From contig PNMW01000085.1 of assembly GCA_013823855.1 (NCBI GenBank), positions 1 through 64,000 on the forward strand: a stretch of 64,000 nt of DNA. The letters run 5' to 3'. A model generated the notes under the pieces. The model was given only the letters and a program-made list of their open reading frames with translations, was not told where the DNA came from and made no database searches. The DNA is from Lysobacteraceae bacterium. GTDB lineage: Bacteria; Pseudomonadota; Gammaproteobacteria; Nevskiales; Nevskiaceae. Below are positions 46,234 through 62,228 of this stretch, one piece after another (position 1 is the first letter of the stretch; each line of letters begins with the position of its first letter). Both the position numbers and the translations under genes were made by a program.

Positions 46234-46743
46234 TCAAGAGCGCGCCGCCGTTGCCGTGCCGGTTTCCAGCAGTTCCGCGAGGCGCAGCTCGATCGCCGCC
46301 AGATCGGGGATCACCGCGTCGCGATCGTCGAGACGGGCCCGGGCCAGCACCAGCGCGGCGACATCGGCCGCCCGCAGCGGCAGCGCTTCCAGCGCGTCGC
46401 GGCCGAGACGGGTCAACTGCGGATGACCATCGCAGAGCAGCCCGAAGCGCGGGCCGCCGGCACCGGCGGTCATCGCCTGCAGCACGGCGATCCGGGCCCG
46501 CCGGCCGCCGCTGTCGTGGCTGCCGCCGTTCAGGCGCTCGAAGCGCAGCACCGGCAGGTCGAGGTCCTGCCAGACGACCCAGCCGGCGAACCAGTCCGGT
46601 GCGCCGTCGGCGGCCGGTCGCAGCGCGCCCGGCGTGATGGCATCGGCAAGCGCCAGGTGGGGCAGCAGCAGGCGCTCGTCGCGCAGCGGCAGCAGCACGG
46701 CGTTGACAGTGTCGGGGCCCGGCTCGCGGATCGGGTCGCTCAT
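46234..46743 (-). CDS. chpC: CheW-like protein of the Chp system (ChpC-like)
   Basis: CheW-like fold features (LLPLRDERLLLPHLALADAI..., WQDLDLPVLRFERLNGG) directly downstream of chpA with 4-nt overlap. Confidence 0.65.
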   Translation of the reverse strand: MSDPIREPGPDTVNAVLLPLRDERLLLPHLALADAITPGALRPAADGAPDWFAGWVVWQDLDLPVLRFERLNGGSHDSGGRRARIAVLQAMTAGAGGPRFGLLCDGHPQLTRLGRDALEALPLRAADVAALVLARARLDDRDAVIPDLAAIELRLAELLETGTATAARS

Positions 46744-49700
46744 GGTCGGATGCCGGGCAGGCTGCGCAGCGTGGCCAGCAGCTGGTCGTCCTGCCAGGGC
46801 TTGGTCAGGTAGTGATCGACGCCGAGCTGCCGCGCCCGGGCCCGGTGCTTGTCGCCGGAACGCGAGGTGATCATCACCACCGGCAGCGCCGCCAGCCGCG
46901 GCTGCTTGCGGATGAAGGCGGCGACCTCGAAGCCGTCGGCGCGCGGCATCTCGATGTCGAGCAGCACCGCGTCCGGCGTTTCGCGATGCAGCAGCGCCAT
47001 CGCCTCGACGCCGTCGCGGGCGCTCAGCACCCGGTAGCCCTGGCGCAGCAGCAGCCGCTCGGCGACCCGGCGGATGGTGATCGAATCATCGACCACCAGC
47101 ACTGCCGCGCGGGCGGCGCCGAGCCGCGCGTCGAAGTGGTCGTCGTCGCTGTCGCGCCGGGCGCGGCGCGGGCGCTCGGCGACCAGGGCTGGCAGGTCGA
47201 GGATCATCGCCACCCGGCCATCGGCGAGGATCGTCGCGCCACCGATGCCGGCCACCGAGCCGAGCTGCGGGCCTGCGGTCTTGCTGACGATCTCGCGATT
47301 GCCGAGCACCCGGTCGACGATCAGCGCCAGCGGCCGGTCGTGGTCCGGCAGGCCGGACGCGAGGCGGAGCAGCACCGCGTTGACCTGCCGACCGTCGCCT
47401 GCGGAGCCGCGCGGCAGGTCGATGAAATCGGCCAGGTGGCAGAGCTGCCAGTCCTGGTCGGCAAAGTGGAACAGCGGCCGGTCACCGGCCAGCAGCCGTT
47501 CGGCCTGCTCGCGCGGCAACCGGCCGACGCCTTCGATGCAGGTCAACGGAATCGCGAATGTTTCCTCGCCGACCCCGACCAGCAAGGCCTGCGAGACGGC
47601 CAGCGCCAGCGGCAGGCGGATCGTGAAACGGGCGCCGCGGCCGGTTTCCGAGTGCAGCGCCAGGGTGCCGCCAAGCTGACGGACCTGGTTGACCACCACG
47701 TCCATGCCGATGCCGCGGCCGGCGTCCTCGGTCAGGTGACGCGCAGTGGTGAAGCCGGGTTCGAGGATGAAGCGAGCCAGCGCCGCATCGCTGACCTCGG
47801 CCTGCGCCGGCAGCAGGCCACGGGCGATCGCCTGGGCGCGGATCGCCGGATAATCGAGCCCGCGACCGTCGTCGCCGACCTCGATCAGCAACTGCGCGCC
47901 GTCGCGGGACAGCCGGATCTCGATGCTGCCGCGTGCCGGCTTGCCGGCAGCGAGGCGCACCTCCGGCGGCTCGACGCCATGGACCACGGCGTTGCGCAGC
48001 AGGTGTTCGAGCGGTGCGGTCATCCGTTCCAGCACGTTGCGGTCGAGTTCGGCATCGGTGCCGATGTACACCGGCTCGGCGTCGCGGCCGTGTTCCTGAG
48101 CGGTCTGCCGGATCACCCGGGTCAGGCGCTGTTCCTGGCGCGAGAACGGCACCATCAGCGTGCTCATCAGCCCCTGCTGCAACTCGGTGGCCTGGCGGCC
48201 CTGCTGCTGCAGCAGGCTGTCGGCGCTGCCCAGCGCTTCCTCCATGCTGCCGTGCAGCGAGCCGAGATCACCGACCGACTCGGCCAGCGCCCGCGACAGC
48301 TCCTGCATCCGCGAATAGCGGTCCATCTCCAGCGCGTCGAACTCGGCGGCGTAGCGATCCTCGGGCTCGTGGCCGTGGGCGGCGCGGCTGCTGCTGCGGG
48401 CATTGATCTGGGCATCGGTCTCGATGTCCATCTGGCGCAGCTGGTCGCGGATCCGGGCGATGGTCTGCGTGGTTTCGGCAAGCTGCGCCTTCAGCGCCGC
48501 ATGGTGTTCGTCGAGCTGCGCCCGGGCGATGGCGATCTCGCTGGCCTGATCGAGCATCGCGTCGAGCCGTTCCACCGGCACCCTCGCGGTTTCGCGGCGG
48601 CTGATCGGGACGGCGACATCGGCCTCGTCCGGCGTCCAGAACAGGCCGGGCAACCAGTCGTGCAGCGCCGACGCGGGCGCGAGGTCGGCTTCGATGTCCA
48701 CACCGGCATCACCGGCATCACCGGCATCACCGGCATCACCGGCGACGCCGGGCGCCGATTTGTCATCCGGAGCCGACGCCACAGCGGACTCGACTGCTGC
48801 GGTTGCCGGCGGCGCGCTCGCCGGCACGGCCCCGGCTGCGGCGGCCGGCGCGCCGGCGGTCCCGAGCGCGGCATCGATCGCCGCCAGCAGCGGTGCGGCC
48901 GGCAGCCGTTCGCCGCGCTTCAGCGCATCGAGCTGGCGCTGCAGGCTGTCGAGGCCGCTGTCGAAGGCGGCGAGCAGCGCCGCCGGCGGCAGATCGCCCG
49001 GCCGTTCCAGCATCGTTTCGAGGCGGTGGGCAACCGCGCCGATCGCGGTCGCCGCCGCCATCCGGGCGCTGCCCTTCAGCGTATGCAGCCCGCGGCGCAG
49101 GCTGCCGAGGCTGCGCGCGTCGTCGGGCCGGCCGCCCCACAGGGCGGACGACACCGCCAGCGCATCGAGCAGTTCCTGCGCTTCGCCGAAGAAGATGTCC
49201 TGCAGCTCGGCATCGACCTCGCCGTCGGCGTCGGCTTCGCTGGCGACGACCGGCGCCGTCCCGGCCGGTGGCGGCCGGCGCAGCCGGGCGATGCGCTCGG
49301 CGTGGCGCTCGGCGGCCTCGTCGGGCACCGGCTGTTCGTCGGCCACCGCGTCGACCCATGCGGCCAGCTGCTGCACCAGTTCGTCGAGCAGCGGCAGCGC
49401 CGTGACCGGCAGCTCGCGATGCGCCTGCTGGCCGGTATCGAGCGCGATTTCGAGCATTCCGGCGAGGCGGCTCAGCGCCACCGCGTTGACGATCGCCGCC
49501 GCGCCTTTCAGCGTGTGGAAGCTGCGCGACAGGCTGTCATCGATGGTGAAGGTGGACGCCTGACGGTCGCAGTGCGCCAACCATTCGCGGAGACCGGCCA
49601 GACGGCTGCGGCTGTCGGTGCAGAAGACGCTGCGCAGGTCGGGCGCCGGCGTCGCCGGGGCGGTGTTGAGCTGCTCCAGACGGTCGATCAGCGCGCCATC

Positions 49701-51683
49701 CAGCGCGTCCGGCGCCGGCTGGCCGGCACGCCAGGCGGCGAGCAAGGCCGGCAAGGCCTGGATCGCGTCGTCGATGGCGGTCCGCTGCGCGTCCTCCGGC
49801 GGTTGCGTGCCGTCGAGGCTGCGATTCAGCAGCTGTTCGCCGGCCGCACCCAGACGGCCGATCGCTTTGGCGCCGACCGTGCGGCCGCTGCCCTTGAGCG
49901 CGTGGAAGGCGCGGCGGATCGCCGCCAGCGTCTCGGTACGGCCCGGATCGCGGTTGAACGCCGGCCGAAGGGCGGCGAGGCCGGCCAGCACTTCGGTGGC
50001 TTCGTCGACGAACAGCGCGCGCAGCTCGCCGGTGGCGTCAGCGTCGGCATCGGTCGCGGCGGCGGCGAGGGCAGGCGCCGATGGCGGTGCCGGCGCTGCC
50101 AGCGCCAGCGTTTCGATGCCGGACACCAGGGCCAGCGCCAGCGCGCTGCGGCGCGGGCTGCCGTCGCGGCGCGCCTCCAGCCAGGCTTCCAGCGCGGCGA
50201 TCGGCGCCACCAGCGGGGCGGCCTGCGCCGGGTCGAGCCGCGGCAGCGCGGCGAGCTGCCGTTCGAGCGCAGCCAGCGCGTTGGCCTCGGCTTGTGCCCC
50301 CAGTACGCGCAGCGCGGCCGATTGCGCCTGCAGCAGCGCTGCCAGCGGGGTTGGGGTGTCGGTATCGGGCTCGCGTAACGCGCGTTCCAGCTCGGTCCGG
50401 ATCCGGGCCGTGTCGATCAGCAGTTCGCGGTGCAGGGCGGCCGTGGCGTCTCGGTGTTCCTGTGGCTGCAGCTGCCCGTCTCCCGGCTGGCCCGGCTGCA
50501 GGGTGTCGGCCAGTTGCGCCTCGATGCGCAGCAACTGTTCTGCGATCCCCAGCCAGACGACGGTGTCGGTGCTGTCCTGCACCTCGGTCAGTGCCTGCGT
50601 CAGCTGCTGCATCGAATCGGCGCTGTCGCCGGCGCCGAGCAGCGCGACGACCCGCGCCGCGCGCAGCAGGCGCGGGCCGGTGTCGGCCAGCGCATCGTGG
50701 CTGCCGCGCTGGTGCAGGTCGATGGCGTCCTTGATCGCCGCGAATTCGCTGTGCAGCGCCGCCAGCGCCGCGCTGCGGCTGGCGCGATCCGGCCGGCGCG
50801 CGCCCGTCGCCGGCCAGGGCGCCGCACCGATCGGCAGCAGCCGGGCCAGCAGCGCGCGGGCGGCGGCGCGGTCGGCCGCGCGCAATCCGTGGACCAGCAG
50901 CCACAGCGTGTCGCCGGCCTGGGCGCGGGCGGCCGCTTCGCCGCTGTCGGCAAGCAGCTTCAGCTGGCTGACTGCGCGACCGAGCAGGCGGCGGGTATCG
51001 AGCACCTCGACGCGACGACCGAGCAGGTGGTCGGCGAAGGCGGCATGGCCAAGCCACAGCGCGCGCAGATGGTCGTCGTCGACGCCGCCGGCAATGGCGC
51101 CGGCGGTCGCGCTGATCCGGGCCAGCGCTTGGTCGGCGGCCGGATTGCGGAACCAGGCGAGGAACGCGGCCTGGAAGCCGGGCAGTTCCCGGCGCGCCAG
51201 CACGATGACGGTTTCGCCAGCGCCGCCAGCGGCGGTGCTGCGCGCCACCGTGTCCGGCCAGCGTTCGGCGACGGCGCGGGCGGCGAACAGCTCGGCCGCG
51301 GCAAGCGCCGGTTCCGCGCGCGCGGCGCGCAGCGCGTTCAGCGCCGCCCGCCATTGCTCGGAGTCGGGGTCGTCGCCGGTCTCGGCCCCGGCATCGAGGC
51401 AGGCTTCGAGCTGCAGCGCGGCGTCGTCGAGCGCGGCGCAGGCGGCGTCGGTCGGCGGCCCCGCCGCCAGCAGCGCCCGCATCTCCCGCGTCAGCCGTTC
51501 GCCGGCAAAGGCGCCGGTCAGCTCGAAAACGCCGTGCAGCTCGCGCAGCGCCTGATCCAGCCGGGCGCGGTATTCGTGCTGCCGTGGCGGGTCCTCCGGC
51601 AGCGCTGCCAGCGCCACCTGCACCGTGTCGATCGACAGGCGCAGCAGCGGCCGGAGGGCCGGTTCGAGCGGGGGGCGGGCCAT
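46740..51683 (-). CDS. chpA: ChpA-like hybrid chemosensory histidine kinase (multiple Hpt, HATPase, CheW, REC)
   Basis: Hpt motifs FHALKGSGRTVGA, FHTLKGAAAIVNA, LHTLKGSARMAAA; kinase LEHLLRNAVVHGVEPP, DDGRGLDY; C-terminal REC VLVVDDSITIRR...LDIEMPRADGF. Confidence 0.93.
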   Translation of the reverse strand: MARPPLEPALRPLLRLSIDTVQVALAALPEDPPRQHEYRARLDQALRELHGVFELTGAFAGERLTREMRALLAAGPPTDAACAALDDAALQLEACLDAGAETGDDPDSEQWRAALNALRAARAEPALAAAELFAARAVAERWPDTVARSTAAGGAGETVIVLARRELPGFQAAFLAWFRNPAADQALARISATAGAIAGGVDDDHLRALWLGHAAFADHLLGRRVEVLDTRRLLGRAVSQLKLLADSGEAAARAQAGDTLWLLVHGLRAADRAAARALLARLLPIGAAPWPATGARRPDRASRSAALAALHSEFAAIKDAIDLHQRGSHDALADTGPRLLRAARVVALLGAGDSADSMQQLTQALTEVQDSTDTVVWLGIAEQLLRIEAQLADTLQPGQPGDGQLQPQEHRDATAALHRELLIDTARIRTELERALREPDTDTPTPLAALLQAQSAALRVLGAQAEANALAALERQLAALPRLDPAQAAPLVAPIAALEAWLEARRDGSPRRSALALALVSGIETLALAAPAPPSAPALAAAATDADADATGELRALFVDEATEVLAGLAALRPAFNRDPGRTETLAAIRRAFHALKGSGRTVGAKAIGRLGAAGEQLLNRSLDGTQPPEDAQRTAIDDAIQALPALLAAWRAGQPAPDALDGALIDRLEQLNTAPATPAPDLRSVFCTDSRSRLAGLREWLAHCDRQASTFTIDDSLSRSFHTLKGAAAIVNAVALSRLAGMLEIALDTGQQAHRELPVTALPLLDELVQQLAAWVDAVADEQPVPDEAAERHAERIARLRRPPPAGTAPVVASEADADGEVDAELQDIFFGEAQELLDALAVSSALWGGRPDDARSLGSLRRGLHTLKGSARMAAATAIGAVAHRLETMLERPGDLPPAALLAAFDSGLDSLQRQLDALKRGERLPAAPLLAAIDAALGTAGAPAAAAGAVPASAPPATAAVESAVASAPDDKSAPGVAGDAGDAGDAGDAGVDIEADLAPASALHDWLPGLFWTPDEADVAVPISRRETARVPVERLDAMLDQASEIAIARAQLDEHHAALKAQLAETTQTIARIRDQLRQMDIETDAQINARSSSRAAHGHEPEDRYAAEFDALEMDRYSRMQELSRALAESVGDLGSLHGSMEEALGSADSLLQQQGRQATELQQGLMSTLMVPFSRQEQRLTRVIRQTAQEHGRDAEPVYIGTDAELDRNVLERMTAPLEHLLRNAVVHGVEPPEVRLAAGKPARGSIEIRLSRDGAQLLIEVGDDGRGLDYPAIRAQAIARGLLPAQAEVSDAALARFILEPGFTTARHLTEDAGRGIGMDVVVNQVRQLGGTLALHSETGRGARFTIRLPLALAVSQALLVGVGEETFAIPLTCIEGVGRLPREQAERLLAGDRPLFHFADQDWQLCHLADFIDLPRGSAGDGRQVNAVLLRLASGLPDHDRPLALIVDRVLGNREIVSKTAGPQLGSVAGIGGATILADGRVAMILDLPALVAERPRRARRDSDDDHFDARLGAARAAVLVVDDSITIRRVAERLLLRQGYRVLSARDGVEAMALLHRETPDAVLLDIEMPRADGFEVAAFIRKQPRLAALPVVMITSRSGDKHRARARQLGVDHYLTKPWQDDQLLATLRSLPGIRP
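48701..48745 (-). repeat. 9-bp tandem repeat inside chpA
   Basis: CACCGGCAT x4 plus one variant CACCGGCGA, encoding GDAGDAGDAGDAG linker. Confidence 0.9.
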
Positions 51684-56157: not shown

Positions 56158-57225
56158 GTGAACATCAAGCACTCCAAGCCGCTGCACCTGCTGCTGTCGT
56201 CCCTGCTGTGCGGGCTGGCGCTGCCGGCTCTGGCGACCCTGCCCGGTCCGTTCGGCACGGCGCTGACCAAGTCGACCAAGACCGTGAAGACGGTCGCCAC
56301 GACCACGCCGCCTCCGGCCACGGTCAGCGGCACGATCGATCCGGTCAGCGGCCATCTGACGGTCAGCGGCAGCCTGAAGCGCACCTGGGTCACGCTGAGC
56401 GGCGGCCTGGTGCAGTCGAACCACCTGCTGACCGTCAGCAGCGCCACCTTGAACGTGGCCGGCATCGCGCGCCGCTACGTGCTGATGCGGCCGACCGGCC
56501 TGACCAGCAACGCGCCGGTGCTGCTGATGCTGCACGCCAGCGGCATCACGCCGGAAACGATGGCCAGCCTGACCGAGGTCGCCGATTACGCGGCGACCCA
56601 GGGCTTCTGGGCGGTACTGCCGGCGGCGGTCGGCGGCGTCTGGAAGGACGATCCCTGGAAGACCGGCGCCGACGACGTCAACTTCATCACGGCGCTGATC
56701 ACCCAGCTGGGCAGCCAGGGTGCCGACCCGGCGCGCATCTACGCGGCGGGCTACTCCAACGGCGGCTTCATGGCGACCCGGCTGGCCTGCGCCGCCGCCG
56801 ACCGGATTGCCGGCTTCGGCATCGTCGCCGCGACCACCCGCTATGGCGTGTCCAGCACCTGCGGCACGCCGGTATCGCGGCCGAAGGTCTGGTTCTTCGG
56901 CAGCGCCGACACCATCGTGCCGATCGCCGGCGCGCTCGACCTGCGCTCGGCGGATTCGACCCTGTCGTTCTGGAACAGCCGCCAGGGCTGCGCCGGCGTG
57001 CTGGCCAGCAGCCTGCCGAACCGCTCGACCACCGACGGCACCACCGTGCAGCTGAGCCGCTACACCGGCTGCACCGGCAGCGGCGCGGTCGAGAACCAGG
57101 CCTACACGATCACCGGCGGCGGCCATGCCTGGCCGGGCGGTCTGGTGTCGGTCACCGGGGTCATCTCGCAGGACATCAAGGCCACCGGCCTGATCTGGAA
57201 CTTCGTCCGCGGCTACCAGCGCTGA
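56158..57225 (+). CDS. secreted PHB-depolymerase-like esterase (alpha/beta hydrolase)
   Basis: Signal peptide; lipase box GYSNGGFMATRLACAAADRIAGFGIVAA; FFGSADTIVP; GGGHAWPGG. Confidence 0.87.
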   Translation: MNIKHSKPLHLLLSSLLCGLALPALATLPGPFGTALTKSTKTVKTVATTTPPPATVSGTIDPVSGHLTVSGSLKRTWVTLSGGLVQSNHLLTVSSATLNVAGIARRYVLMRPTGLTSNAPVLLMLHASGITPETMASLTEVADYAATQGFWAVLPAAVGGVWKDDPWKTGADDVNFITALITQLGSQGADPARIYAAGYSNGGFMATRLACAAADRIAGFGIVAATTRYGVSSTCGTPVSRPKVWFFGSADTIVPIAGALDLRSADSTLSFWNSRQGCAGVLASSLPNRSTTDGTTVQLSRYTGCTGSGAVENQAYTITGGGHAWPGGLVSVTGVISQDIKATGLIWNFVRGYQR

Positions 57226-57249: not shown

Positions 57250-58557
57250 TCAGCGCGCCGTTGCCGGTGCCGCCGCACCGTCCTTCGCCGGCCGCTTCAG
57301 GTAGCGGTCGCGAAGCAGGGTCTGGCGGCTGACCATCGGCATCGCCTGGCCGTCGATCCACACCGCGGTGGCGGCGCTGGTCACTTCCAGCGGATCGCCG
57401 TCCCAGAGCACCAGGTCGGCGATCTTGCCCGGCTCGATCGAGCCGAGCACGGTCGACAGGCCGAGGATCTCCGCCGGCTGCAGGGTGATCGCCGCCAGTG
57501 CCGCGTCGCGGCTCATGCCGTGGGCGGCGGCGATGCCGGCCAGCTGGCGCAGGTTGCGGGCGTTGTGGCTGCCGAACTCGGAGGCATCGATGAACGCGAA
57601 GCGGACGCCGGCCTTGGCCAGCACCGCCACCGCATCACGGCGGACATGCAGCGTCTCGAAGTGCGCCGGCAGGTTGCGGCTCGGGTCGAGCAGCACCGGC
57701 ACGCCACGGCTCGCCAGTTCGCTGGCGACCAGATGCGCTTCGGCGCCGCCGCAGATGATCAGCTGCAGGCCGTAGTCGTCGGCCAGCTTCAGCGCCGCCA
57801 CGATGTCCGAGGCGCGTTCGGCGCCGAGCACCAGCGGCATCTCCCGCTGCAGCAGCCGCCGCAGCGCCGCGACATCGAGCGGACTCAGCTGGGCGTCGCC
57901 GGACAGGCCGTCGGCCAGCCGTGCGCCGCCGCTGCGCGCTTCCTCGAAGGCTTCGCGCAGCGCCGCGAGCGCGGCCGGCCGGCCGCCGGCCAGCTCGCGA
58001 CCCTGCTCGCCGAGCGCGGCGAACATCGCCGCCTGCGGCCGGACGATCCATTGGCCGTCTGCGGCCAGCGTGCCGGCCAGCGAAATGATCGCGCCCTGGC
58101 CGGCGATCAGGCTGCCGCCCTTGGTCGAGTCCGGCGCGGTCAGCGCCCGGGTCACGCCGGCGATGCGGTTGACCGGCAGCAGCACCGAACGCGGATTCAG
58201 CGCATCGACGACGTCGAGCGCAGCGCTGTAGCGCTTCTGCGTAGACGCGACATCATTGGTTTCCTCGACACCGTCGATCTCCTTCAGACCGAGCTGGCTG
58301 CGGGCGACGATCAGCCCCGGTGTCAGCGGCCGGCCGCCGGCGTCGATCCGCCGGGCGCCGTCCGGCACCGCGACGTCGATGCCGACCGCTTCGATGTGGC
58401 CGTTGCGGACCAGCACCGTTGCGCCTTCGAGCACCCCGGCGCTGCCGACGGTATGGACCTCGGCATTGCCGATCGCGAACAGCTCGGCCGCGGCTGGCCC
58501 GGCGAGCACGATGGCGACCAGGCCGCCCAGCGCCTGCAGCGAGGTGCGGCGGATCAT
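57250..58557 (-). CDS. amidohydrolase-like protein lacking the N-terminal HxH motif
   Basis: Amidohydrolase-type N- and C-termini (PLTPGLIVARSQLGLKEID; TLQPAEILGLSTVLGSIEPGKIADLVLWDGDPLE). Confidence 0.85.
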   Translation of the reverse strand: MIRRTSLQALGGLVAIVLAGPAAAELFAIGNAEVHTVGSAGVLEGATVLVRNGHIEAVGIDVAVPDGARRIDAGGRPLTPGLIVARSQLGLKEIDGVEETNDVASTQKRYSAALDVVDALNPRSVLLPVNRIAGVTRALTAPDSTKGGSLIAGQGAIISLAGTLAADGQWIVRPQAAMFAALGEQGRELAGGRPAALAALREAFEEARSGGARLADGLSGDAQLSPLDVAALRRLLQREMPLVLGAERASDIVAALKLADDYGLQLIICGGAEAHLVASELASRGVPVLLDPSRNLPAHFETLHVRRDAVAVLAKAGVRFAFIDASEFGSHNARNLRQLAGIAAAHGMSRDAALAAITLQPAEILGLSTVLGSIEPGKIADLVLWDGDPLEVTSAATAVWIDGQAMPMVSRQTLLRDRYLKRPAKDGAAAPATAR

Positions 58558-59981
58558 GGCGTGTCTCCGGTGGCGGCTGCGGGCGGCGTGGCGACGGCCT
58601 CGTCGACATCGGCGCCGAGCATGAAATCGCTGTCCGGCTGCGGGTTCGGCCGGGCGCGGTCGAGGCGCAGCACGCCGTCGATCCAGACCTGATCGGCATG
58701 GGCGTAGACCGAGAACGGCGAGCGGCTCCACAGCACCACGTCGGCGGCCTTGCCGACCTCCAGCGTGCCGGTCGTCTCGAGAATGCCGAGCGCCTTCGCC
58801 GGATTCGCGGTCAGCCAGCCGATCGCGTGTTCCTCGCTGATCGGCAGGCCGGCGCGGCGGCCGGCGGCCATCGCCTTGGCGGCTTCCTGGTTGAGCCGCT
58901 GGATGCCGTCGGGATCGTCGGAGTGGACGATCGCGCAACCGGGGCCCTGGTCGCTGCGCGCGGCGTCGACGATCGCGATGTTCTCGTTGATCGCGTCCCA
59001 GGCTTCGAGCTTGAAACCCCACCAGTCGGCCCACAGCGCGCCGCAGGTCTGGGTGTCGGCCAGCAGGTCGGCGATCTTGTAGGCCTCGACCGCGTGGTGG
59101 AAGGCCTGGATCTTGAAGCCGAATTCGCGGGCGACATCGAGCATCGTCGCCATCTGGTCGGCGCGGTAGCAATGCATCTGCACCAGGATATGGCCGCGCA
59201 GCACGTCGGCCAGCGTGTCCATCGCCAGATCGCGATCCGGCGACGGCCCCTTCTTGTCCTTGCTCCAGGCGTCCCACTTGGCGCGGTAGCCGCTGGCCTT
59301 GGCGAACGCGGCGCGATAACCCGCGACATTGCCCATGCCGGTCGCCGGTGAGCGGCCACCGTTCTTGCCGTAGACCCGTTTCGGGTTTTCGCCGCAGGCC
59401 ATCTTCAGGCTGCGCCTGGCGCCCGGAAACAGCATCTGCTGGTAGGTCACCGCCGGCACGTTCTTGATCACCACGCCGCGGCCGCCGATCAGGTTGGCCG
59501 AACCCGGCAGCACCTGCAGCGTGGTGACGCCGCCGGCGCGCGCCGCCTGGAAGCCCGGGTCCTGCGGCCAGATCGAATGCTCGGCCCAGACTTCGGCGGT
59601 GGTCGGCGCGGTCGCTTCGTTGCCGTCGCTGGTCGCCCAGACACCGGGCGCCGGATAGACGCCGAGGTGCGAATGGACGTCGATGATGCCCGGCGTCAGA
59701 TAGCGGCCGCCGGCCTCGATCACCGTGGTGCCGCCGGCTGCCAGCCCCTTGCCGATGGCGGCGATCCTGCCGTCGGACAGCAGCACGTCGGTGTCGTCGA
59801 GCCGGGTGTCGAGCCCGGTCAGCACGGTGGCGCCGCGGATCAGCACGGCGCTGGATTCCGGGGCCCGGTAGGTCGACGGAAACGGGTCGGCGGCGGCTAT
59901 CGGGGCCGGATGGCGGTCACCGCAGGCGGCCAGCAGCACGGTGGCGAGCGCCGCAAGGCAGGCGCGGGCGGATCGGGTCAT
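58554..59981 (-). CDS. amidohydrolase family protein (imidazolonepropionase-like), lipoprotein
   Basis: Lipobox LLAAC; YLTPGIIDVHSHLGVYPAPG intact HxH; AIGWLTANPAKALGILETTGTLEVGKAADVVLWSRSPF; overlaps downstream gene by 4 nt (ATGA). Confidence 0.9.
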   Translation of the reverse strand: MTRSARACLAALATVLLAACGDRHPAPIAAADPFPSTYRAPESSAVLIRGATVLTGLDTRLDDTDVLLSDGRIAAIGKGLAAGGTTVIEAGGRYLTPGIIDVHSHLGVYPAPGVWATSDGNEATAPTTAEVWAEHSIWPQDPGFQAARAGGVTTLQVLPGSANLIGGRGVVIKNVPAVTYQQMLFPGARRSLKMACGENPKRVYGKNGGRSPATGMGNVAGYRAAFAKASGYRAKWDAWSKDKKGPSPDRDLAMDTLADVLRGHILVQMHCYRADQMATMLDVAREFGFKIQAFHHAVEAYKIADLLADTQTCGALWADWWGFKLEAWDAINENIAIVDAARSDQGPGCAIVHSDDPDGIQRLNQEAAKAMAAGRRAGLPISEEHAIGWLTANPAKALGILETTGTLEVGKAADVVLWSRSPFSVYAHADQVWIDGVLRLDRARPNPQPDSDFMLGADVDEAVATPPAAATGDTP

Positions 59982-60134: not shown

Positions 60135-62228
60135 ATGAAGGTCTGCTTACGGGGAGCGGCAATGGCGGTCAGCGTGCTGGGCGGTGCATCGGCGGTTCGG
60201 GCGGCGGAGCGTGTCGTCGAGGACCCCTACCTGTGGCTGGAAGCGGTCGACGACGCCAAGGCGCTCGACTGGGTGCGGGCAGGCAATGCGGTCTCGACCC
60301 GGGAACTCGAAGCGAGCCCGGATTTCGCGCCGATCCACGATCGCCTGCTGACCATCCTCGATTCCGAGGCGCGGATTCCCTACGTCACCAAGATCGGCGA
60401 CCGCTACTACAACTTCTGGCGCGACGCGAAGCAGGTGCGCGGCGTCTGGCGGCGCACCACGCTCGAGGAATACGCCAAGGCCGAACCGGCCTGGGAAACG
60501 GTGCTCGACCTCGATGCGCTGGCGGCCGCCGAGCACGACAACTGGGTCTGGAAGGGCGCCGAATGCCGCTACCCGGACTACCAGCGCTGCCTGCTGCAGC
60601 TGTCGCGCGGCGGCGGCGATGCCGTGGTGGTCCGCGAGTTCGATCTGGTCGAGAAAGCCTTCGTCGCCGACGGTTTCGCCACGCCGGAAGCGAAGACCGA
60701 GATCACCTGGGCCGGCCGCGACCGCGTCTATGTCGCCAGCGATTTCGGCCCCCGCAGCCTGACCGGCAGCGGCTACCCGCGCACGGTGCGCGAATGGCGG
60801 CGCGGCACGCCGCTGGCCGAGGCGGTGGAAGTGTTCGCCGGCGCCACGGACGACGTCGCCTCCAGCGCCGTGGTGATCGACAGCGCCGGCCAGCACCACG
60901 AGCTGATCCGCCGGACCACGACGTTCTACAGCGGCGAGTACTGGCTGAAGGTCGACGGCGTGTTCCAGCGGCTGGCCGTGCCGGACGACGCCCAGGTCGG
61001 CTTCTGGCGCGATCAGCTGACCGTCGAGCTGCGCAGCGACTGGGCGATCGGCGGCAAGGTCCATCCGGGCGGAGCACTGCTGGCGATCGGGGTCGCCGAG
61101 TTCCTGGCCGGCCAGCGCGATTTCGCGACGCTGTACACGCCCGGCCCGCGCAAGTCGCTGAGCGGGCTGGCCGGGCTGCAGTCGGCGCTGATCGTCAACG
61201 AGCTCGACAACGTCCGCAGCCGCCTGTACCTGCTGAAGCCGGGCCGCGACGGCTGGAGCCGCACGCCGATCGAGGCGCCGGCCTTCGGCGCGCTCGGCGT
61301 GTCGGCAGTCGACGACGACAGCAGCGACGACTACTGGCTGACGGTGACCGACTTCCTGACCCCGACCACGCTGTACCGCGCCGGCCTCGATGGCGGCGCG
61401 GCGCAGCGGCTGAAGGCGCTGCCGGCCTACTTCGACGCCAGCGGACTGGAGATCGTCCAGCATCAGGTGACATCGAAGGACGGCACCCGGGTGCCGTACT
61501 TCCAGGTGTCGCGCAAGGGCCTCAAGCTCGATGGCCGCAACCCGACGCTGCTCTATGGCTACGGCGGCTTCGAGGTGTCGATGCTGCCGAGCTACGGCGC
61601 CGGCGTCGGGGCGTCGTGGCTGGAACGCGGCGGGGTCTACGTGCTGGCCAACATCCGCGGCGGCGGCGAGTTCGGCCCGGCCTGGCACCAGGCGGCGTTG
61701 AAGCAAGATCGCCAGCGCGCGTTCGACGATTTCATCGCCATCGCCGAGAACCTGATCGGTCGCGGCGTGACGTCGCCGCCGCATCTCGGCATCCAGGGCG
61801 GCAGCAACGGCGGCCTGCTGATGGGCGTGATGCTGACCCAGCGGCCGGAGCTGTTCGGCGCCGTGGTCTGCCAGGTGCCGCTGCTCGACATGCGCCGCTA
61901 CCACCGGCTGCTGGCCGGCGCCTCGTGGATCGGCGAGTACGGCAATCCGGACCTTCCGGAGGAGTGGGCGTGGATCGCCAGGTACTCGCCGTACCAGAAC
62001 CTGAAAGCCGATGCGAAGTACCCGCGCGTGCTGTTCACCACCTCGACCCGCGACGACCGCGTCCATCCCGGCCACGCCCGCAAGATGGCGGCGCGGATGG
62101 CCGAGCAGGGCCACGATGTCCTGTACTACGAGAACATCGAAGGCGGCCACGGCGGCGCGGCGAACAACCCGCAGCTGGCGCGGATGACTGCGCTGGCCTA
62201 TGCCTTCCTGTGGCGGCATTTGCGCTGA
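60135..62228 (+). CDS. prolyl oligopeptidase family serine peptidase (S9A)
   Basis: DPYLWLEAVDDAKALDWVRAGN; catalytic GIQGGSNGGLLMGVMLTQRPELFGAVVCQVPLLDM; DDRVHPGHARKM. Confidence 0.93.
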   Translation: MKVCLRGAAMAVSVLGGASAVRAAERVVEDPYLWLEAVDDAKALDWVRAGNAVSTRELEASPDFAPIHDRLLTILDSEARIPYVTKIGDRYYNFWRDAKQVRGVWRRTTLEEYAKAEPAWETVLDLDALAAAEHDNWVWKGAECRYPDYQRCLLQLSRGGGDAVVVREFDLVEKAFVADGFATPEAKTEITWAGRDRVYVASDFGPRSLTGSGYPRTVREWRRGTPLAEAVEVFAGATDDVASSAVVIDSAGQHHELIRRTTTFYSGEYWLKVDGVFQRLAVPDDAQVGFWRDQLTVELRSDWAIGGKVHPGGALLAIGVAEFLAGQRDFATLYTPGPRKSLSGLAGLQSALIVNELDNVRSRLYLLKPGRDGWSRTPIEAPAFGALGVSAVDDDSSDDYWLTVTDFLTPTTLYRAGLDGGAAQRLKALPAYFDASGLEIVQHQVTSKDGTRVPYFQVSRKGLKLDGRNPTLLYGYGGFEVSMLPSYGAGVGASWLERGGVYVLANIRGGGEFGPAWHQAALKQDRQRAFDDFIAIAENLIGRGVTSPPHLGIQGGSNGGLLMGVMLTQRPELFGAVVCQVPLLDMRRYHRLLAGASWIGEYGNPDLPEEWAWIARYSPYQNLKADAKYPRVLFTTSTRDDRVHPGHARKMAARMAEQGHDVLYYENIEGGHGGAANNPQLARMTALAYAFLWRHLR

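Follow-up and report, generated by a model that had tools for sequence, protein, structure and literature searches.

A metal-less amidohydrolase encoded beside its ligand-complete paralogue: the predicted live and dead halves of an exported bacterial hydrolase

Inactive members of active pairs

Few enzyme superfamilies have been studied as much as the amidohydrolases, and the dihydropyrimidinase-related proteins (CRMPs) provide a case in which the fold was kept and the metal ligands were lost. Their ligand loss is like that of the gene described here, gene B, but the CRMPs are eukaryotic and cytosolic and are not known to be co-transcribed with an active paralogue. The pseudo-dihydroorotase of Pseudomonas, which is found with aspartate transcarbamoylase, is a metal-less and inactive subunit on which the activity of its partner depends (PMC7053772). 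The likeness to gene B is that a metal-less member of the amidohydrolase superfamily has been kept as an inactive subunit; the difference is that the active partner in Pseudomonas is an unrelated transferase, whereas the partner of B, gene A, is its own paralogue, predicted to be exported and encoded by an overlapping gene. The M16 peptidases (PMC12731061) consist of homologous halves, both of them needed, of which one holds the active-site residues; they differ from A and B in having an unrelated fold and metal motif. Pairs of active and inactive subunits are already known, one of them with a metal-less amidohydrolase, and the A-B pair with its three-domain variant is more general than was first stated. 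A search of the open-licence PMC literature found no description of the A-B pair, which is weak evidence of novelty.

A ligand-complete gene and its metal-less paralogue

The window, by which we mean the whole stretch of 64,000 nucleotides that was analysed, carries the two genes and their neighbours as listed in Table 1. At the position of the HxH metal motif the upstream gene A has LTPGIIDVHSHLGVYP and the downstream gene B has LTPGLIVARSQLGLKEID, and the preliminary description, which had reported the loss of HxH from the downstream gene, is exact in its motifs and coordinates. The 4-nt overlap that it gave is equally accurate, the ATGA being common to both genes. Mapping all the metal ligands by alignment to 3ooq, a step suggested there, extends the loss beyond HxH. 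Gene A is complete, with H103, H105, K193, H270, H296 and D355 making up the set of HxH, Lys (beta-4), His (beta-5), His (beta-6) and Asp (beta-8) found in catalytic binuclear-type amidohydrolases, and is predicted to bind metal. Gene B does not have this set; its first five ligand positions are occupied by R86, Q88, F179, G245 and G270, and the alignment of the sixth could be off by one residue, with an adjacent Asp (D324) that may be kept, which leaves at least five ligands gone. Ligands at the HxH, His and Asp positions are usual for the superfamily, and we count K193 as a ligand on the strength of what is known of the family and of its conservation throughout, rather than from a structure.

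Table 1. Positions of the pair, its neighbour and the related loci discussed in the text (positions without a locus name refer to the window)
Feature	Position	Strand	Remarks
Gene B, metal-less amidohydrolase paralogue	57250-58557	-	435 aa; exported-type N-terminus
Gene A, amidohydrolase with lipoprotein-type signal	58554-59981	-	475 aa; predicted active subunit
ATGA shared by the stop of A and the start of B	58554-58557	-	translational coupling
S9 prolyl oligopeptidase	60135-62228	+	divergent from A-B; outside the conserved unit
N-A fusions with a separate B	L093:3458-6604, L094:1384-4491, L097:7160-10162, L167, L173-L178		
Fused A-B	L096:4987-7755		922 aa
Separate N with fused A-B	L096:3311-7755		
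Shortened A ahead of B	L082:1835-4507		
N-A then B, Hymenobacter	L183:2763-7184		plasmid record
POT, A, B and FKBP-type isomerase, Qipengyuania citrea	L181:2903-7903		plasmid plas1
B with HSH	L067:6936-8216		
B with HSH	L160:4303-5499		

Both proteins score above the Pfam cut-offs for Amidohydro_1 and Amidohydro_3 (25 and 29.7 bits), A with 44.7 and 52.6 bits and B, in its C-terminal part, with 47.3 and 45.0 bits. Their sequences are 29% identical over 391 aa (E 3e-21), and a profile-profile comparison gives a probability of 100% (E 3e-65) over 376 columns. Among solved structures 3ooq, an amidohydrolase of Thermotoga maritima, is the sole full-length match to either (2e-64 for A, 2e-37 for B); A has the ligands that 3ooq has, whereas 3ooq differs from B in carrying all of them. 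The ten identical chains of the 3ooq entry would allow, without proving, a homo-oligomer. Neither a published function nor a paper for 3ooq was found in the open-licence PMC literature.

The label "imidazolonepropionase-like" that had been given to the genes holds at the level of the superfamily but not as a specific family, 3ooq being the nearest solved relative and the NCBIfam model for HutI (TIGR01224, cut-off 298 bits) scoring only 33.9 bits for B and 41.8 bits for A. An Xaa-Pro dipeptidase model (NF051886, cut-off 500 bits) gave 54.4 bits for B and 31.6 bits for A, and with both genes so far under the cut-offs either identity was rejected. COG1228-type peptidases and their relatives, namely the arginine carboxypeptidase Cc2672 (3mtw), an Xaa-Pro dipeptidase (2qs8) and amidohydrolases such as 8ihq, belong to the same superfamily and gave partial matches to A and B, but their sequence similarity to the pair is fragmentary. 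These relatives suggest that the pair may hydrolyse amides or peptides; to our knowledge, none of them has a metal-less partner subunit.

Conservation, coupling and fusion across genomes

We assembled 91 loci from Gamma- and Alphaproteobacteria, the window among them, which were selected through their matches to B with the flanks then fetched, and sorted the domains with profiles for A, B and a third type, N. Gene A immediately precedes B, in the same orientation, in all 91 and keeps the six ligands HHKHHD in every case, while B keeps none of them in 51 loci, one in 33 and two in 7, and never more than two of the six. With the loss repeated across the 91 loci, neither chance nor a faulty assembly accounts for it in gene B. 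The beta-6 His has become Gly in 84 of the 91 B proteins, and the other ligand positions are highly variable, H1, H2, H5 and D8 varying freely, so that the old catalytic site is not reused in a conserved way. The HxH motif alone is an unreliable marker, since the B genes of L067 and L160 have HSH with the other ligands gone, and its use as the sole criterion for B was rejected as misleading. Close relatives of the B of L067 have RSQ, RSA or SSA at the site, and its HSH may have been regained by chance.

Genomes were sampled at three levels: 60 relatives, 369 gammaproteobacterial genomes and 399 genomes of the phylum. Full-length B occurs in 13 of the 60 relatives' genomes, the window genome not counted, and the two larger samples yielded further matches. 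Searches for A and for B at an equal threshold, each scoring four first-look candidates per genome (a minor caveat), returned the identical 21 of the 369 gammaproteobacterial genomes, with neither gene alone in any; these represent 18 of 272 genera, and the A and B matches lie at distinct coordinates. An identical draw of this kind would have a chance of about 1e-34 if genomes were independent, which they are not, and the pattern spans many families. The preliminary view of B as a pseudoenzyme is well supported by the ligand counts and the selection described below, and its pairing with an active-type paralogue very strongly so by the constant adjacency and the shared genomes. Two findings had been named in advance as telling against this view, close homologues annotated as active that lack HxH and still bind metal, and an absence of the pair elsewhere; all A-type homologues keep HxH, and the pair co-occurs everywhere examined.

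Both genes are under purifying selection, somewhat relaxed in B, with dN/dS of 0.25-0.35 for B and 0.17-0.29 for A among the window and its close relatives L009, L010 and L011. The mean p-distance is 0.59 for B vs 0.39 for A, B being the faster evolving, and the distances of the two correlate in a mirror-tree comparison of 77 pairs (r = 0.79, the shared species phylogeny being left in this value). The loss of catalytic residues and the faster evolution could be taken to mark B as a duplicate of A in decay, persisting alongside it by chance, but the B frame is open across two classes, its dN/dS is well below 1, and B is never lost where A is kept. The selection and co-occurrence data rule out a decaying pseudogene, and we give this possibility practically no weight.

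Purifying selection on B could also reflect a protein that is still an enzyme, working beside A with a new active site that is metal-independent or differently liganded. Such a role would suit the residues that are conserved in B and absent from A (E93, N121, D251, G347, R411, L415, R418 and Y419), the last four of which lie in a conserved, B-specific C-terminal segment, SRQTxLRDRY. However, no new cluster of conserved His, Asp, Glu or Cys has appeared at the barrel ligand positions, and many of the B-specific conserved residues are of the Gly, Pro, Val or Leu types or fall in the C-terminal tail, which makes a surviving catalytic function of B quite improbable.

The stop codon of A and the start codon of B overlap in 75 of the 91 loci, by 4 nt in 55 (ATGA, GTGA or TTGA) and by 1 nt in 20, and the remaining junctions are mostly no more than 15 nt apart. 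The sole non-fused locus without close coupling is L082, where A is cut to 395 aa and ends 189 bases ahead of B; a frameshift is a possible cause of the shortening. At L096, A and B are naturally fused in one protein, with N as a separate gene. Domain N is a third metal-less amidohydrolase type, for which the best solved relative in a profile search is also 3ooq and which keeps no more than one ligand in 11 loci; in a second lineage, at ten loci, it is fused N-terminally to A, with B as a separate downstream gene, giving a dead-live-dead arrangement. Between them, these N-A fusions and the A-B fusion of L096 show the three parts joined in more than one manner. A plasmid record of Hymenobacter (Bacteroidota) has the same order of N-A and then B, split over several annotated genes, apparently through frameshifts.

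In a tree of 91 domain sequences the A+B pair is present in three deep lineages, and A is split from B and N together by well-supported branches. Four relatives in Bacillota and Actinomycetota, all on plasmid records, carry the six ligands HHKHHD, and no second copy lies beside them in the fetched flanks. These ligand-complete singletons fit with the duplication of an active single-copy ancestor.

The N-terminus of A in the window has a lipoprotein-like signal, LLAACG, with the lipobox LLAAC, and that of B has a signal-peptide-like segment. By simple patterns, a lipobox is found in 69 of 80 A genes and a hydrophobic N-terminus in 88 of 91 B genes, and both proteins are predicted to be periplasmic.

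Neighbourhood and proposed role of the pair

The prolyl oligopeptidase that the preliminary description placed next to the pair does adjoin it, but this is not general: the gene is divergent, it was seen beside the pair only in the window and the three relatives nearest to it, and a functional link was rejected. By eye, an exported esterase resembling polyhydroxybutyrate depolymerases (56158-57225, plus strand) is convergent with gene B. Elsewhere in the window, also by eye, there is a very long chemotaxis-type histidine kinase of 1647 aa (46740-51683, minus strand), with several Hpt-like segments, CheW-like and receiver parts at its end and a short GDAGDAGDAGDAG repeat.

In about a dozen alphaproteobacterial loci, from Sphingomonadales, a POT peptide transporter is directly upstream of the pair, and on a plasmid of Qipengyuania citrea the transporter, A, B and an FKBP-type isomerase follow one another in this operon-like order on one strand, with a divergent GntR regulator gene. 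Among the loci examined from other lineages, no conserved neighbour was found. The upstream transporter in this one lineage and the peptidase relatives in the superfamily hint weakly that the substrate of A is perhaps a peptide.

The same transporter would also suit an independent exported binding protein, in which the metal-less pocket of B carries substrate or product to the transporter or to A with no stable complex being formed. Strict co-occurrence and overlapping genes are expected of any pathway partner, and the former could also arise if B acted on or after the product of A without binding A. Nevertheless, the A-B fusion and the fusions of a dead domain to A point to physical association, and the variability of the replaced ligand positions, beta-6 excepted, implies that the old pocket floor is no conserved binding site; we regard a free-standing binding protein as unlikely.

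Starting from the ligand pattern, the strict pairing, the overlapping genes, the fusion and the selection, all of which are observed, the reading that we favour, and hold to be probable, is that A and B make up one exported hydrolase, with A as its live half and B as its dead half and obligate partner, most likely in a heteromer. Taken together, strict pairing, overlapping genes and fusion are most simply explained if B serves A as a structural or regulatory subunit. The heteromer that had been raised as a possibility at the outset is indirectly supported by the A-B fusion, the translational coupling and the strict co-occurrence, and it is from such sequence evidence that we infer a physical association of A with B. 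AlphaFold models built from six-sequence alignments reached a mean pLDDT of 40 for A and 43 for B, too poor for use.

It can be hypothesized that A and B descend, through an ancient duplication, from a single-copy metallo-amidohydrolase of the 3ooq type. A would have retained the metal centre, usually anchored as a lipoprotein, while B would have retained the fold but not the metal site and turned into an obligate partner, its synthesis tied to that of A by translational coupling. B would most likely substitute for one subunit of an ancestral homo-oligomer, such that A is stable or active only together with B, and B may in addition shape the access of substrate. The likely substrate class would be a peptide or another amide in the periplasm, the products of which would be imported.

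A broader proposal, which we advance tentatively and with less than even confidence, is that the pair represents a widespread and undescribed class of exported hydrolases in Pseudomonadota and Bacteroidota, built from one live barrel and one or two dead ones (A+B, or N-A+B). Its dead subunits would have taken the place of chains in an ancestral homo-oligomer, and activity or the selection of substrate would depend on them. The strict live/dead pair spans two proteobacterial classes, and the dead-live-dead form is also present in Bacteroidota. Annotation labels the two genes of such a pair just "amidohydrolase", and dead copies are consequently counted as enzymes. If the favoured reading of A and B as two halves of one hydrolase is true, the pair would show clearly, in bacteria, a pseudoenzyme that has become essential to its own paralogue as a subunit, and it would serve as a warning against assaying A alone.
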